Positions 47,478-55,760 of a DNA stretch of 64,000 bases are shown piece by piece. This stretch comes from Phycisphaeraceae bacterium (lineage in GTDB: Bacteria; Planctomycetota; Phycisphaerae; Phycisphaerales; UBA1924): NCBI GenBank assembly GCA_019636675.1, contig JAHBXC010000002.1, positions 620,001-684,000 of the forward strand, written 5' to 3'. The notes beneath the pieces are model-generated. The model saw only the letters and a list, made by a program, of their open reading frames with translations. It was not told the origin of the DNA and searched no databases. How positions within the stretch are numbered: the stretch's first letter is position 1; every line of letters begins with the position of its first letter. The translations under genes were made by a program, and so were the position numbers.

Positions 47478-48524
47478 GTGGATTCCATCCCTCGCGACGA
47501 CCAACGACCCTCCCCTGATGCGCACGGCGCGTCGAACGGTTCCTTGCCGCTCGGCTCCGACCCCCCCAAGCCCGCGACGCGATCGCAACTCGCCGAGGCC
47601 GACCCCGAACTCGCGATCGGCCTCTCCCTCACCGGCGCGATGCCCTGCATCACCTGCGGGTACGACCTCCAGGGGCTCTCCGTCATCGGCGTCTGCCCGG
47701 AGTGCGGCAGCGCGGTCCGGGCCACGATCCTCGCCAAGGTCGACCCGCAGGCGGACGAACTCCAGCCGCTGCTGCATCCCGGTCTCGCCGCCTACGGGCT
47801 CGCCGGGGGCGTCATCGCCGGCTTCATCGCGACGATCACCGCGTGGCTCCCCCGGGTCGCCGAAGCCGCCGAGCGCTACACCCCGCTCGACACGGCGCGG
47901 TTCTTCGAGTCGCGCTTCTTCGCTCTCGCGATTTTCCTGTGCGTCTCGGTCGCGGCCTTCGCGCCGCTCACCATCGTCAGGCCCGTCTCGAAGACGACGC
48001 GAGCGCAGATGCTCATCACGCTCGCGGCGTTCCCGCTCTTTGCCCCCATGCTGTGGGCGGTCCACCGCATCTATTTCGTCATCGACCCCGTCACCCCTCC
48101 GGCGTATTTCGTCGGGTCGCCCGACCCCGACCGCCTCGTTGCGCGCTTCGTCTTTACGGGCGCGCTGATCGGCGCGCTGCTGTGCGTCCGGCCCGCGGCG
48201 CGCCGGCTCGCACGCCGGTCGATGGCGATGCGCGCCGGGCGCCTGAACCGCCAGACCGTCTTCGCGATGGCCGGCGCGCTGCTCGTCGCGTCGGTGGGGG
48301 ATGTCCTTCGCGTGGTCGCCGTCGGCTCGCCGCCCGCCCTGCGCGACGGGCTCGACATCGCGGGCTCGCTCCTCGTCTTCGGGGGGTCGGCGATGTTCAC
48401 CGTGGGCGCCGCGTTCTGCGCCTACGACGCCGTGCGCGTCGCCCAGGCCCTGCGCCGCCCCCAGCCCGGGCTGCGCCAGGTGGTCGGCTCCGCGTCGCGC
48501 CCGTCGACGCCGGCCCGCCGATGA
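47478..48524 (+). CDS. Zinc-ribbon membrane protein of unknown function
   Basis: This 348-residue protein has a disordered start, a zinc ribbon C-I-T-C-G-Y-D-L-Q-G with C-P-E-C-G (residues about 57-77) and about six membrane helices in two or three groups. The ribbon form (C-x2-C-G-Y-x-L, then C-P-E-C-G) is common to a large group of planctomycete membrane proteins and also occurs in the gene at 38980. Function unknown. GTG at 47478 is the start; the 270 bases after it, before groEL1, hold no gene. Confidence 0.75.
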   Translation: MDSIPRDDQRPSPDAHGASNGSLPLGSDPPKPATRSQLAEADPELAIGLSLTGAMPCITCGYDLQGLSVIGVCPECGSAVRATILAKVDPQADELQPLLHPGLAAYGLAGGVIAGFIATITAWLPRVAEAAERYTPLDTARFFESRFFALAIFLCVSVAAFAPLTIVRPVSKTTRAQMLITLAAFPLFAPMLWAVHRIYFVIDPVTPPAYFVGSPDPDRLVARFVFTGALIGALLCVRPAARRLARRSMAMRAGRLNRQTVFAMAGALLVASVGDVLRVVAVGSPPALRDGLDIAGSLLVFGGSAMFTVGAAFCAYDAVRVAQALRRPQPGLRQVVGSASRPSTPARR

Positions 48525-48794
48525 CTGCCAACATGGCAGGCGCTCCTCGCGACCGCGTCACACTCTGACGCTCGACGCGCCGCGAACCGACTCCCCACCC
48601 CGCCGCAACGGTCCCAGGGCCCAGTCCGGGCGATCTCGGGTCTACCCGGTTGCAGCACCGGGCTGGCGCCCGCCTTGCCACTCCCCATGACAGCAATGAC
48701 CCGCGCCGCGGCCGCGGTCCACCCGGATCGCCTTCCCCGGCGCGCTTCTCACAGACACCCAGACCCACGACCGACCCTCGGAGATACGAACCCC

Positions 48795-50528
<1,734 letters not shown>

Positions 50529-50532
50529 GGAA

Positions 50533-51417
50533 ATGAACGCGCCGGCTCCGGCACTTTGCCGTGATCAACACTTTGTTGCACAAATGATCAGTCGCCGTTT
50601 CTGTAACGCAGACGGCAAGCTGTTTCAGTTGCGCAAGCAGACTTGGAGCGTCGATGCTGGGGCAAAGTCGCCGAAAGGTGTTCTTTGGGGCAAGGAGTTC
50701 TACGGGCCGCCGGGTAATCTTCTCGATCGGATCTACACACGAATCGAGAATGAATTCGGTAAGATCTACGACGAATTGTGCGGGGCAGACAAGGTTAGCA
50801 GGAAAGCACTGGATACATTTATTCAATTCTCTGCTGCGCAGGCCACTCGGACCCCGTTTGTTGGCCTCGCTTTCAATGACGCCTCACTAGCCGGCGATTC
50901 TCTTGCATGGGCAAGGGTGTCTGAGACTCGGTTATGGATGTGGCGACAAACCCTGCAGATCTTTCGGCAAGACTGGTGGGGATGGCGTCGACTCTGCCTG
51001 CCTGAGGATGGCGAGCCGCTATTGCTCACGGATCACCCTGCGTGCTTTGCTCCGCGCATAGGCTCTGGCGGGCTTTTCTGGCTCTTTCCGTTGTCGCCGT
51101 ATGTTGTCTATGTTGGTGGCGAACGTGTGTCGCTCGGCAGCATTGATGAGCATGATGTGCAGGGGCTTAACCTGATGTTGTTGGGGGCGGCGGTAGATCG
51201 TGTGTATTCAGGGAACAAAGGGCTTCTTGATCAATTGCAGGCATCGCTTTCACCTGACCGTGATGGGGGCGATACCGAGATTGCTGCCGTTCTTCGCGCG
51301 CCTTCATTTGGTGACCTTGCAGAGCCCTCAGGTGCTCCCGATTGGCTGAAGTCTGTTAGTCTTGTCGACGCAGCAAAAATCGCCTTTATGGCATCGAACC
51401 AAGTTGGAGTGATGTAA
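50533..51417 (+). CDS. DUF4238-like protein, low-GC insertion between groEL and groES
   Basis: This protein of about 294 residues starts at ATG 50533 (AAGGAA site), 5 bases after the groEL stop, and ends 5 bases before the groES start. It shows the DUF4238 pattern: D-Q-H-F-V-A-Q-M-I-S-R-R-F at the start, L-L-L-T-D-H-P-A-C-F in the middle and F-P-L-S-P-Y-V-V-Y-V. Base composition differs: 28 and 31 G/C of 60 in two lines (50761-50820, 51181-51240) against 42 of 60 in groEL (50161-50220). Codons such as GAT, TTT, AAG and TTG are also freer. This looks like a horizontally gained gene. The role of DUF4238 is not known. Confidence 0.85.
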   Translation: MNAPAPALCRDQHFVAQMISRRFCNADGKLFQLRKQTWSVDAGAKSPKGVLWGKEFYGPPGNLLDRIYTRIENEFGKIYDELCGADKVSRKALDTFIQFSAAQATRTPFVGLAFNDASLAGDSLAWARVSETRLWMWRQTLQIFRQDWWGWRRLCLPEDGEPLLLTDHPACFAPRIGSGGLFWLFPLSPYVVYVGGERVSLGSIDEHDVQGLNLMLLGAAVDRVYSGNKGLLDQLQASLSPDRDGGDTEIAAVLRAPSFGDLAEPSGAPDWLKSVSLVDAAKIAFMASNQVGVM

Positions 51418-51421
51418 GAAT

Positions 51422-51709
51422 ATGGCCGTCAAACCCCTTGAAGACCGCGTGCTCGTGAAGCCCATCGAGCAGAACACGAAGACCGAATCGGGGCTCTACC
51501 TGCCCGAGACCGCGAAGGAGCGCCCTATGCAGGGGCAGGTCGTCGCGACCGGGCCGGGCAAGCGCCTCGACAACGGCACGATCGCCAAGCCCTCCGTGAA
51601 GAACGGCGACACCGTCGTGTTCGGCAAGTACGCCGGCTCGGAGATCGAGATCAAAGGCGTCAAGCACCTGATCATGCGCGAGAGCGAACTGCTGGGCGTG
51701 CTGGCCTAA
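51422..51709 (+). CDS. groES: Co-chaperonin GroES
   Basis: This 95-residue co-chaperonin forms the heptameric lid of GroEL. It has L-E-D-R-V-L-V-K-P-I, the mobile loop T-E-S-G-L-Y-L-P-E-T-A, and E-I-E-I-K-G-V-K-H-L-I-M with the usual late G-V-L-A. It is the only groES in the window, between two groEL genes. The ATG at 51422 follows the DUF4238 stop by 4 bases. Confidence 0.96.
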   Translation: MAVKPLEDRVLVKPIEQNTKTESGLYLPETAKERPMQGQVVATGPGKRLDNGTIAKPSVKNGDTVVFGKYAGSEIEIKGVKHLIMRESELLGVLA

Positions 51710-51715
51710 TTCCGG

Positions 51716-52062
51716 TCCCCCTCCCACTCGTGGGAGGGGCTAGGGGAGGGTCTTCGATCTGTTGGAGATCGAGGAGAGAGGAAGAGCCCTCCCCCTGCCC
51801 CCTCCCGCAAGTGGGAGCGGGGAAAGAAAGAGTCCCCCTCCCACTCGTGGGAGGGGTTAGGGGAGGGTCTTCGATCTGGTTGAGATCGAGGAGAGAGGAA
51901 GAGCCCTCCCCCTGCCCCCTCCCGCAAGCGGGAGGCGGGAAAGAAAGAGTCCCCCTCCCACTCGTGGGAGGGGTTAGGGGAGGGTCTTCGATCTGGTTGA
52001 GATCGAGGAGAGAGGAAGACCCTCCCCCTGCCCCCTCCCGCAAGCGGGAGGGGGGAAAGAAC
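51716..52062. repeat. Three tandem 117-bp hairpin repeats
   Basis: Three units start at 51716, 51833 and 51950, each 117 bases (the last slightly shorter, with a 1-base deletion and different end). They differ at only a few positions, such as C/T after GAGGGG and a few in the AAGTGGGAG stretch. Each holds two small palindromes (CCCCTCCCACTCGTGGGAGG and CCTCCCGCAAGCGGGAGG) and a long imperfect inverted repeat whose arms are about 24 bases (GGGTCTTC with GAAGACCC at its core). The rest of 51710-52232 holds no gene. Confidence 0.92.
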
Positions 52063-52232
52063 CTGACCCCACGCCGTGGCACGGCTTCGCCGTACCACGC
52101 CACCCCACGATCACAGTGGGACGACATACGAGAGACAGAGACCCCTCCCGCGATCTCACCGTCGCCTGAGGGATTCGCAGACGACACCACCAAACACCGC
52201 CGCTTCTGGCGACCTTTGCAGGACAGACACAC

Positions 52233-53846
52233 ATGGCCACCAAGCAGATGATGTTCGACGACGCCGCCCTCCTCGAGATGAAAGAGGGCGTCACGCGCCT
52301 CGCCCGCGCCGTCAAGGTCACCATGGGTCCGACCGGGCGCAATGTGATGCTCCAGAAGTCCTACGGCGGGCCGCAGGTCACCAAGGACGGCGTGACCGTT
52401 GCGAAGGAAGTCTCGCTGCCCGAGGCGTTCCAGAACATGGGCGCCAAGATGGTGCACGAGGTCGCGAAGAAGACCAACGACATCGCCGGCGACGGCACGA
52501 CCACGGCGACGGTGCTCGCCGAGGCGATCTTCAGCGAGGGGCTGCGCATCGTGGCCTCGGGCGCGAACCCGGTGCAGGTGCAGCGCGGCATCAACGCCGC
52601 TGCCCAGGCCGCGTCGGACGCGATCGGCGAGATGGCCACCAAGTGCAAGGGCAAGGACGACTACAAGAAGGTCGCGACGGTCTCGGCGAACCACGACGCG
52701 TCGATCGGCGAGATCATCGCCGAGGCGATCGCGAAGGTCGGCGCCGAGGGCGTGGTCGAGGTGGAAGAGGGCAAGGCCTCCGACACGACGCTCGAGTATG
52801 TCGAGGGCATGCAGTTCGATAAGGGCTACCTGTCGCCCTACTTCATGACCGACCCCAAGAGCGCCGAGTGCGTGCTCGAGGACGCGCTGGTCCTCCTCCA
52901 CGAGAAGAAGATCAGCAACCTCGCCGACTTCCTGCCCCTGCTCAACAAGGTCGCCAGCAGCGGCAAGCCCCTGCTCATCGTCGCCGAAGAGGTCGAGAAC
53001 GAGGCGCTCGCGGCGCTGGTCGTCAACCGCCTGCGCGGCGTGCTGAAGATCTGCGCCGTCAAGGCGCCCGGCTTCGGCGACCGTCGCAAGGCCATGATGC
53101 AGGACCTCGCGGTCCTCACGGGCGGAACCTTCTTCAGCGAGGACCTCGGGCGCTCGCTCGAGTCGATCGACCTGTCCGAGATGGGCCGCGCGAAGAAGAT
53201 CATCGTCACCAAGGACGACACGACCGTGATCGAGGGCGCCGGCAAGAAGGCCGACATCAAGTCCCGCGCGGATCAGATCAAGGCGCAGCACGAGAAGTCC
53301 ACCAGCGAGTACGACCGCGAGAAGCTCATGGAGCGCCTCGCGAAGCTGACCGGCGGCGTGGCGATCATCCATGTCGGCGGCTCGACCGAGATGGAGGTCA
53401 AGGAGCGCAAGGACCGCGTCGACGACGCGCTGAACTCCACCCGGGCCGCGGCCAAGGAGGGCTATGTCCCCGGCGGCGGCGTCGCGCTGCTCCGCTCGCA
53501 GAGCGCCATCGAGACCGCCAAGGCCAAGGCCAAGGGCGACGAGAAACTCGGCTACGACATCGTCTCGCGCGCCGTCGAGGCGTGCGTGAAGCAGATCGCC
53601 GAGAACGGCGGGTACGACGGCGACCTGGTCGTCGAGAAGGTGAAGGAGTCGGCGAAGAATGTCGGCTTCAACGCCGCCACCGGCGAGTACGAGGACCTGG
53701 TGAAGGCCGGGATCATCGACGCGGCGCTGGTCCCCAAGACCGCGCTCGTGAACGCCGCGTCCGTCGCCGGGCTGATGCTCACGACCGAGGTGCTGATCAG
53801 CGACCTGAAGGACGACAAGAAGCCCGAGGCCCAGGCCGTTTCCTGA
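52233..53846 (+). CDS. groEL2: Chaperonin GroEL, second paralogue
   Basis: This is a second, clearly different 60-kDa chaperonin of 537 residues: [37 protein letters not shown] and a charged end (D-K-K-P-E-A-Q-A-V-S). The Gly-Met tail of a typical GroEL is missing, and it is the more standard length of the two. It follows the repeats and could use the groES at 51422. Subfunctionalised paralogues of this kind are known in several phyla; the client set is unknown. Confidence 0.95.
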   Translation: MATKQMMFDDAALLEMKEGVTRLARAVKVTMGPTGRNVMLQKSYGGPQVTKDGVTVAKEVSLPEAFQNMGAKMVHEVAKKTNDIAGDGTTTATVLAEAIFSEGLRIVASGANPVQVQRGINAAAQAASDAIGEMATKCKGKDDYKKVATVSANHDASIGEIIAEAIAKVGAEGVVEVEEGKASDTTLEYVEGMQFDKGYLSPYFMTDPKSAECVLEDALVLLHEKKISNLADFLPLLNKVASSGKPLLIVAEEVENEALAALVVNRLRGVLKICAVKAPGFGDRRKAMMQDLAVLTGGTFFSEDLGRSLESIDLSEMGRAKKIIVTKDDTTVIEGAGKKADIKSRADQIKAQHEKSTSEYDREKLMERLAKLTGGVAIIHVGGSTEMEVKERKDRVDDALNSTRAAAKEGYVPGGGVALLRSQSAIETAKAKAKGDEKLGYDIVSRAVEACVKQIAENGGYDGDLVVEKVKESAKNVGFNAATGEYEDLVKAGIIDAALVPKTALVNAASVAGLMLTTEVLISDLKDDKKPEAQAVS

Positions 53847-53957: not shown

Positions 53958-55121
53958 ATGGGCAGCACGACACGCGACTATTACGAGATCCTCTCCGTCG
54001 AGCGCGGGGCGAACGGCGAGGAGATCAAGCGCGCGTATCGGCGCCTGGCGATGAAGTACCACCCGGACCGCAACCCGGGCGACAAGGAAGCGGAGACGAA
54101 GTTCAAGGAGTGCGCCGAGGCCTACGAGGTGCTCTCCGACGACCAGAAGCGCCAGGTCTACGACAAGTACGGGCACGAGGGCCTGCGCGGTCGGGCCGCC
54201 GGCGGGCCGGGCGCGGCGCACGACTTCTCGCGGATGAACGTCGAGGACATCTTCTCGATGTTCAACGACATCTTCGACGGCGTCGGCGGGGGGCGCGCCG
54301 GTCGGGCGCGGCGCGGCGTGGCGCGCGGGTATGACCTCGAGACCGAGATCACGCTGACGCTCAAGGATGTGCTCGAGGGCACGACGCGCGAGGTCGAGTT
54401 CACGCGCCTCGATGTCTGCCAGGAGTGCGCGGGCTCGGGCGCCGAGAAGGGCAGCGAGCCGGTGCAGTGCACCACCTGCGCCGGGCACGGCTTCGTGATC
54501 CAGACGGGTCTGGGCGGGATGTTCCGGATGCAGACCGTGTGCCCGGGCTGCCGCGGCCGCGGCAAGATGGTGCTCGACAGCTGCACGAAGTGCCGGGGCA
54601 AGGGGCGCGTTCCCTCGAAGCGCCGCCTGTCGGTGAAGATCCCCAGGGGCATCCACGACGGGCAGGCGGTGCGCATCGCGGGCGAGGGCGAGCCGCCCCA
54701 GCAGGAGGTCTCGGCCGACGGGAGCGGGCAGCGCGGCGACCTGCACGTCGTGGTGCGCGTCGAAGCGGACGACCTGTTCGAGCGCGACGGCGACAACCTG
54801 CTCATCGAACTGCCCATCACCTACACGCAGGCGGCGCTGGGCGCACAGATCACGGTGCCCTCCATCGACACCGAGCACCAGCTGGCTGTTCCCCGTGGAA
54901 CACAGCACGGCGCGGTCTTCACGATCAACGGCGCGGGGCTCCCGAACCTGCGCAGCGGCAAGCGCGGGAACCTGATGGTCGTCACCGACCTGCAGGTGCC
55001 CAAGAAGCTCACCGAGAAGCAGGAGCAGCTGCTGCGCCAGCTGGCGGAGACCGAGGACGTGGCGGTGGCGCCGCGCAAGAGCGGGCTGTGGTCGAAACTC
55101 CGCGACGCGATGGGCGCGTGA
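53958..55121 (+). CDS. dnaJ: Chaperone DnaJ
   Basis: DnaJ is the Hsp40 co-chaperone that stimulates DnaK. The 387-residue protein has the J domain (residues 1-70, H-P-D in Y-H-P-D-R-N-P-G-D), a Gly/Ala-rich linker, the zinc domain with four C-x2-C-x-G-x-G repeats ([32 protein letters not shown]) and the C-terminal substrate-binding domains. dnaK is not next to it. grpE follows 21 bases after its stop. Confidence 0.97.
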
Positions 55122-55142: not shown

Positions 55143-55760
55143 ATGGCATTCTCACGAAAGAAACGCGAGCAGCGAGCCATGATGCAAGGCGACACGGAAC
55201 GACAGCACGACGAAGGCCACGACGAGGTCGAGCCCAAGACCGGCGCGCAGGGCGACGGGTTCGCGGCGCTCGAAGAGCAGGTCGCGAACCTGGAGCGCGA
55301 GCTGGAGGAGGCGAAGGGCCTGCGTCTGCGCGCGCTCGCCGACTTCCAGAACTTCCAGCGCCGCTCGATCCAGAACGAGGAAGAGGCGAAGAAGCAGGGG
55401 GCGGCCGGCGTGCTGCGCACCGTCATCAACGCGCTGGACCACTTCGACCAGGCGCTCAGCCAGCCGGCGGAGAAGATCACCGCCGAGCAGGCGGTCGCCG
55501 GGCTGAAACTGATCCGCGACGAGCTGGTGCGCGCGGTCCAGCAGGCGCACGGCGTGACAATCATCCGGCCCGAGGCCAACGACGAGTTCACGCCGGGTCG
55601 TCACGAGGCGCTCGCCCAGATGCCGCGCGAGGGCGTGAAGCCCGGTCGCGTCGTCGAGGTGTACCAGCCCGGGTACGCGCTGGGCGATCGCGTGCTGCGC
55701 GCCGCGAAGGTCATCGTCTCGCCCGGCGCCGACAGCGACGCCGGCGGGTCGGAGGAATAA
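55143..55760 (+). CDS. grpE: Nucleotide exchange factor GrpE
   Basis: GrpE releases ADP from DnaK. The 205-residue protein has the long helix (L-E-E-Q-V-A-N-L-E-R-E-L-E-E-A-K), A-D-F-Q-N-F-Q-R-R, V-I-N-A-L-D-H-F-D-Q-A-L and the beta domain V-T-I-I-R-P and R-V-L-R-A-A-K-V-I-V-S-P. The first 45 residues are charged. GAAGG sits 8 bases before the ATG. It is second in the dnaJ-grpE-fmdB group. Confidence 0.96.
   Translation: MAFSRKKREQRAMMQGDTERQHDEGHDEVEPKTGAQGDGFAALEEQVANLERELEEAKGLRLRALADFQNFQRRSIQNEEEAKKQGAAGVLRTVINALDHFDQALSQPAEKITAEQAVAGLKLIRDELVRAVQQAHGVTIIRPEANDEFTPGRHEALAQMPREGVKPGRVVEVYQPGYALGDRVLRAAKVIVSPGADSDAGGSEE

Follow-up and report, generated by a model that had tools for sequence, protein, structure and literature searches.

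Few bacterial operons are as conserved and essential as groEL-groES, which is usually taken as fixed. Variable gene content is familiar from other settings: integron cassette arrays, for example, gather promoterless, co-directional cargo, rich in toxin-antitoxin genes, that is read from an upstream promoter. Hotspots on chromosomes and genomic islands, such as those of PAPI-1, likewise hold fast-changing toxin-antitoxin and defence genes between conserved flanks, and PAPI-1 cargo of this kind includes DUF4238 genes (PMC12629846). In E. coli, strong T7 resistance was conferred by one DUF4238 protein encoded in a hotspot of P2-like prophages (PMC9122126), and DUF4238 has been counted among defence systems in later surveys (PMC12629846, PMC10855318). 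A literature search, in which subscription journals were thinly covered, found no earlier description of split groEL-groES pairs or of a variable slot between them.

The locus described here shares with PAPI-1-type hotspots its conserved flanks and its fast-changing content with toxin-antitoxin and defence genes, but differs in that the slot lies inside the groEL-groES operon and holds one to four closely spaced, co-directional genes, with no mobile element found. The finding is this slot, a family-wide gene-capture site within a chaperonin operon, rather than the DUF4238 gene that now occupies it in one genome; that gene belongs to a known domain family, and its horizontal acquisition is nothing unusual.

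A DUF4238 gene between groEL1 and groES

The window, that is, the whole 64,000-nucleotide stretch of DNA that was analysed, contains a chaperone cluster with the following features:

48795-50528, plus strand: groEL1 (Cpn60, by Pfam); its stop codon is the left edge of the slot
50469-50522, plus strand: 9/18-bp repeats encoding the GGM tail of GroEL1, immediately 5' of the insertion point
50529-51421, plus strand: the cargo slot, from groEL1 stop to groES start, 893 bp in the window and 25-2523 bp across the family
50533-51417, plus strand: gene for a DUF4238-domain protein of 294 aa, GC3 0.55, the current cargo (by Pfam and composition)
51406-51409, plus strand: GGAG, the probable groES ribosome-binding site, within the final DUF4238 codons
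51422-51709, plus strand: groES (Cpn10, by Pfam), the right edge of the slot
51710-52232, plus strand: groES-groEL2 gap, a second variable gap, holding three 117-bp palindromic repeats (51715-52061)
52233-53846, plus strand: groEL2 (Cpn60, by Pfam)
53958-55121, plus strand: dnaJ, read from the sequence, with which the chaperone cluster continues
55143-55760, plus strand: grpE, also read from the sequence

The DUF4238 gene sits flush between groEL1 and groES, all three on the plus strand. It starts with an ATG at 50533 and closes with a TAA whose last base is 51417, and groES opens with an ATG at 51422, leaving the 4-bp spacer on each side that the first-pass annotation had reported to the base. 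The downstream groEL2, dnaJ and grpE genes and the 117-bp repeats of the groES-groEL2 gap were absent from that annotation. The protein matches PF14022 (DUF4238) with E=6e-13 and 49.3 bits against a curated Pfam cut-off of 27 bits, and shares an N-terminal QH-V-Q motif and a TD-P motif with its relatives. The gene has a GC content of 0.546 and a GC3 of 0.549, compared with 0.663 and 0.941 for groEL1 and 0.642 and 0.917 for groES; GC3 of the neighbouring genes is 0.92-0.97. Among the 48 genes called in the window (mean GC3 0.882, sd 0.082), the DUF4238 gene ranks last in GC3, roughly 4 sd under the average; the annotation had described it as GC-poor and different in codon usage. The annotation's idea of an insertion is borne out by this foreign composition, by a protein search that found no copy in 60 relatives, and by the other loci examined, none of which has a DUF4238 gene between groEL and groES.

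Because both junctions are only 4 bp, too short to hold a terminator, and no promoter-like site was found in 48400-52300, co-transcription with groES is expected; spacing and collinearity predict that the gene is read together with groEL1 as well. No direct repeats flank the insertion at the window junctions, and no CIRCE operator was found. Of 84 loci, 71 have the tetramer GGAG no more than 22 bp ahead of groES. In the window it falls inside the last DUF4238 codons (GTT GGA GTG ATG TAA), so the gene appears to end within the original groES leader. The window genus is represented in our set by a single genome, so that the insertion is datable no finer than the genus split.

Variability and turnover of the slot across the family

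We located groES in 61 genomes assigned to the same GTDB-level family, as well as in 80 relatives spread across the order, which gave 83 measurable groEL1-groES neighbourhoods, 63 from the family and 20 from its sister families. The gene order groEL1-groES-groEL2 is common across Phycisphaerales, other families included; the difference lies in the spacing. The groEL1-groES gap exceeds 200 bp in 47/63 family loci (median 513 bp, maximum 2523 bp) but in only 2/20 loci of other families (median 86.5 bp, with 18 of the 20 at 40-155 bp); Fisher's test gives p=3e-7 for loci that are not phylogenetically independent. The annotation had taken chaperonin genes to be rarely split, a premise that is wrong for this family. 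Among control gaps in 30 family genomes (rplK-rplA, rplA-rplJ and rplJ-rplL), 0/90 exceeded 300 bp; the ATP-synthase operon was dropped as a second control because in these genomes atpG is not part of an operon. The junction is thus a variable-gene hotspot, with conserved flanks around content that is non-homologous across genomes and exceeds the control gaps. Empty slots of 25-129 bp are kept in 16 family loci, from which the compact state is probably ancestral.

A whole family swaps unrelated genes at this position, with no obvious mobile element; gene capture can thus take place inside an operon that is both essential and highly expressed. Cargo in the slot would be expressed as part of that operon, and the slot is a hunting ground for new toxin-antitoxin and defence genes.

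Turnover was assessed on a quick tree of the GroEL1, GroES and GroEL2 proteins, several branches of which are weak. Slot occupancy needs 16 changes on this tree, and shuffled labels need 16.3 on average. One genus of six species has three empty slots (68-75 bp) and three filled with distinct cargos (338, 548 and 667 bp). Cargo also differs within four sets of close relatives (L044/L119, L045/L118, L057/L114/L115 and L113/L117), in all of which homology ends at, or a few bases from, the groEL1 stop codon. For the first two pairs, DNA homology ends ≤3 bp from that stop and resumes past a module that is unique to one species or swapped in the other. In 32 of 46 slots, no more than 30 bp separate the groEL1 stop from the start of the first cargo gene. 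Cargo starting ≤10 bp from the stop has a mean GC3 of 0.64, against 0.89 for groEL1, and cargo starting farther away has a mean of 0.79 (p=0.0009 versus the nearer cargo).

We consider it likely that the DUF4238 gene was acquired horizontally and sits as a passenger, without a promoter of its own, in a family-specific slot, bounded by the groEL1 stop codon and the ribosome-binding leader of groES, whose cargo is frequently gained, lost and replaced. Foreign DNA would enter at the 3' end of groEL1, the position at which homology ends, leaving no transposon or integron signature; possible routes are via the repeats that encode the GGM tail, directly ahead of the stop, or through homologous exchange spanning the conserved groEL1 and groES flanks. 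Insertions that disrupt neither the reading frame of GroEL1 nor the leader of groES, as is the case at the observed junctions, would survive selection, and their genes would be read off the abundant chaperonin transcript, as the 4-bp spacing, the collinearity and the lack of a promoter-like site in the window suggest. Frequent entry of genes, in the orientation of the operon, and their frequent loss or replacement would explain why relatives carry differing cargo. Cargo would help the cell solely via its own activity, which for DUF4238 would most likely be phage defence or a similar protection.

Contents of the slot and possible selection on them

Slot genes were placed with a codon-based gene caller, which yielded 70 genes, every one of them in the operon direction; several more low-GC genes were recovered by hand. 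Cargo families were assigned from Pfam and PADLOC matches and from local homology. Open reading frames on the minus strand were set aside as antisense shadows, since codon scoring and homology place the genes on the plus strand.

The most frequent cargo is DedA/VTT (14 loci), followed by a disordered protein of ~70 aa with the pattern MSKAKDLLxKxG...RPKV (10 loci: L047, L054, L056, L058, L062, L070, L071, L072, L079 and L123), HicB with or without HicA (6 loci), a family of 150-200 aa with a DLGRE...W motif (6 loci: L041, L052, L059, L064, L078 and L085) and PepSY-like lipoproteins (5 loci). DUF4258/BrnT-like pairs and HIT proteins each occupy 3 loci; DUF433-DUF5615, a nucleotidyltransferase with or without HEPN (HEPN/MNT) and a caspase-like protein of ~225 aa (L063 and L086) each occupy 2; and a ParE-like protein, an AbiU2-like HEPN protein, DUF6680 and a sulfotransferase occur once each, as does DUF4238, in the window locus. 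The ~70-aa protein, which ends in RPKV, sits just after groEL1; the one member scanned had no Pfam match, nor did the scanned member of the DLGRE...W family. The L063 and L086 proteins, from two distant species, are 49% identical and have no Pfam, PADLOC or NCBIfam match; by eye, their H-G-D...S-S-C layout resembles caspase/CHAT proteases.

By our own count, toxin-antitoxin or defence-like genes are present in ~14/47 occupied slots, and DedA, HIT, lipoprotein-like and uncharacterised proteins are as frequent as defence-like cargo. The slot is therefore not a pure defence hotspot.

Such a mixture could mean that the cargo consists of neutral or weakly selfish passengers, and that the gap merely tolerates insertions and transcribes them strongly, with no benefit from each gene. 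Very fast turnover and heterogeneous content favour this explanation, as do HicB genes without a partner as well as fragments (L042, L049, L059) and one occupied slot without a clear gene (L122). Most cargo frames are intact, however, and some families turn up repeatedly: DedA is found in 14 loci, which needs 10 changes on the tree, and HicB in 6 loci, which needs 6. This suggests selection for some of them, and we regard purely neutral carriage as unlikely, though not negligible. Another explanation, which we offer tentatively and think unlikely, is that the junction is a maintained expression platform. Time and again, protective genes of toxin-antitoxin, abortive-infection-like or DUF4238 type would be drawn into the chaperonin mRNA; their dose would track chaperonin expression as stress or phage induces it, and anything that interferes with the transcript would release them.

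Function of DUF4238 and alternative origins

For the DUF4238 gene as a passenger in a slot of changing cargo, defence is the most likely function, judging from distant homology and the company the slot keeps; the gene is probably a defensive acquisition. Such a protective role is suggested by the one family member tested, together with the toxin-antitoxin and defence-like cargo of the slot elsewhere, and the annotation's suggestion of a defence role is plausible on the same grounds (PMC9122126). Like the single-gene anti-phage system (PMC9122126; DUF4238-Pers in PADLOC), the window gene is a one-gene DUF4238 unit that forms variable cargo between conserved genes. It differs in lying in a chromosomal chaperonin operon instead of a prophage, and in encoding a protein that is only ~25-32% identical even to its nearest relatives. 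The window protein did not match the PADLOC DUF4238-Pers model even at E≤5, whereas another DUF4238 protein of the same bacterial family (L034), used as a positive control, matched at 6e-22, which leaves distant homology as the ground for the defence reading.

The single good relative of the window protein in 392 phylum genomes, 29% identical and from the same bacterial family, is encoded by a lone low-GC3 gene in the Phycisphaerales MAG OFTM373, with neighbours unrelated to chaperonins. A three-member profile run against 397 class genomes added just two weaker matches, while PF14022 as a whole is present in 35/298 class genomes. No relatives were found in phages and viral contigs, plasmids gave weak N-terminal matches only, and a profile search of the PDB found no relative. 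An AlphaFold model made with one usable relative as input had a pLDDT of 34 and was left unused. The same genome has a second, very different DUF4238 gene (G000:C2:495035-495895; L001, L095), near which, by eye, are an apparent RhuM-type gene and an integrase.

These relatives bear on whether DUF4238 owes its position to a functional tie with GroEL/GroES, be it as partner, as regulator or as obligate client. The annotation had raised dependence on, regulation of or folding by the chaperonin, and the 4-bp junctions on both sides do imply co-expression. Against this, the same slot in relatives holds unrelated genes, the window gene is missing from the 60 relatives, and groEL, groES, dnaJ and grpE are absent from beside all of ~35 other distinct DUF4238 loci, nearest relatives included (flanks of ~1.5 kb or more per side except at contig ends). 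Occurrence of DUF4238 away from chaperonins is the observation that the annotation itself had named as counting against a functional link. Because DUF4238 relatives elsewhere never adjoin chaperonins, a specific GroEL link is unsupported, and we rate it as improbable.

Mobilization as integron cassettes, or by a transposon or integrase element aimed at the 3' end of groEL, has a certain appeal: the cargo is promoterless, co-directional and toxin-antitoxin-rich, as in integron arrays, and has a fixed left edge as in cassette arrays or 3'-end integration. The attC signal is not above chance, however, with 3 core pairs (RYYYAAC...GTTRRRY) observed and 2.2 expected over 47 slots; GTTRRRY is rarer than expected, and the window slot has no attC-like pair by this simple pattern, which is not a covariance model. 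The entry point, moreover, is the stop codon of an essential gene, no direct repeats flank the window insertion, no integrase was recognised among the cargo genes, and no recombinase was found among cargo proteins scanned against Pfam. We therefore consider this origin very improbable. Many relatives are draft genomes, but the chance that the split operon is an assembly or binning artefact is negligible, given seamless junctions within an 827-kb contig of a genome that is 98.6% complete with 0.36% contamination, and the same pattern in many independent genomes, single-contig ones too.

The groES-groEL2 gap of relatives (e.g., L045, L054, L115, L046, L048, L056) is a second variable slot. Its cargo includes 23S_rRNA_IVP four-helix-bundle genes (12 loci), sulfotransferases (10 loci, one in another family) and GxxExxY PD-(D/E)XK genes (2 loci), and some inserts end in short inverted repeats. 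A second, divergent groES (~50% identical) is present elsewhere in most family genomes and in the window's own genome (e.g., G000:C1:1316818). In the window, most of the groES-groEL2 gap is filled by three tandem copies of the 117-bp palindromic CCCTCCC...GGGAGGG repeat (51715-52061), a unit with about 60 matches scattered genome-wide.
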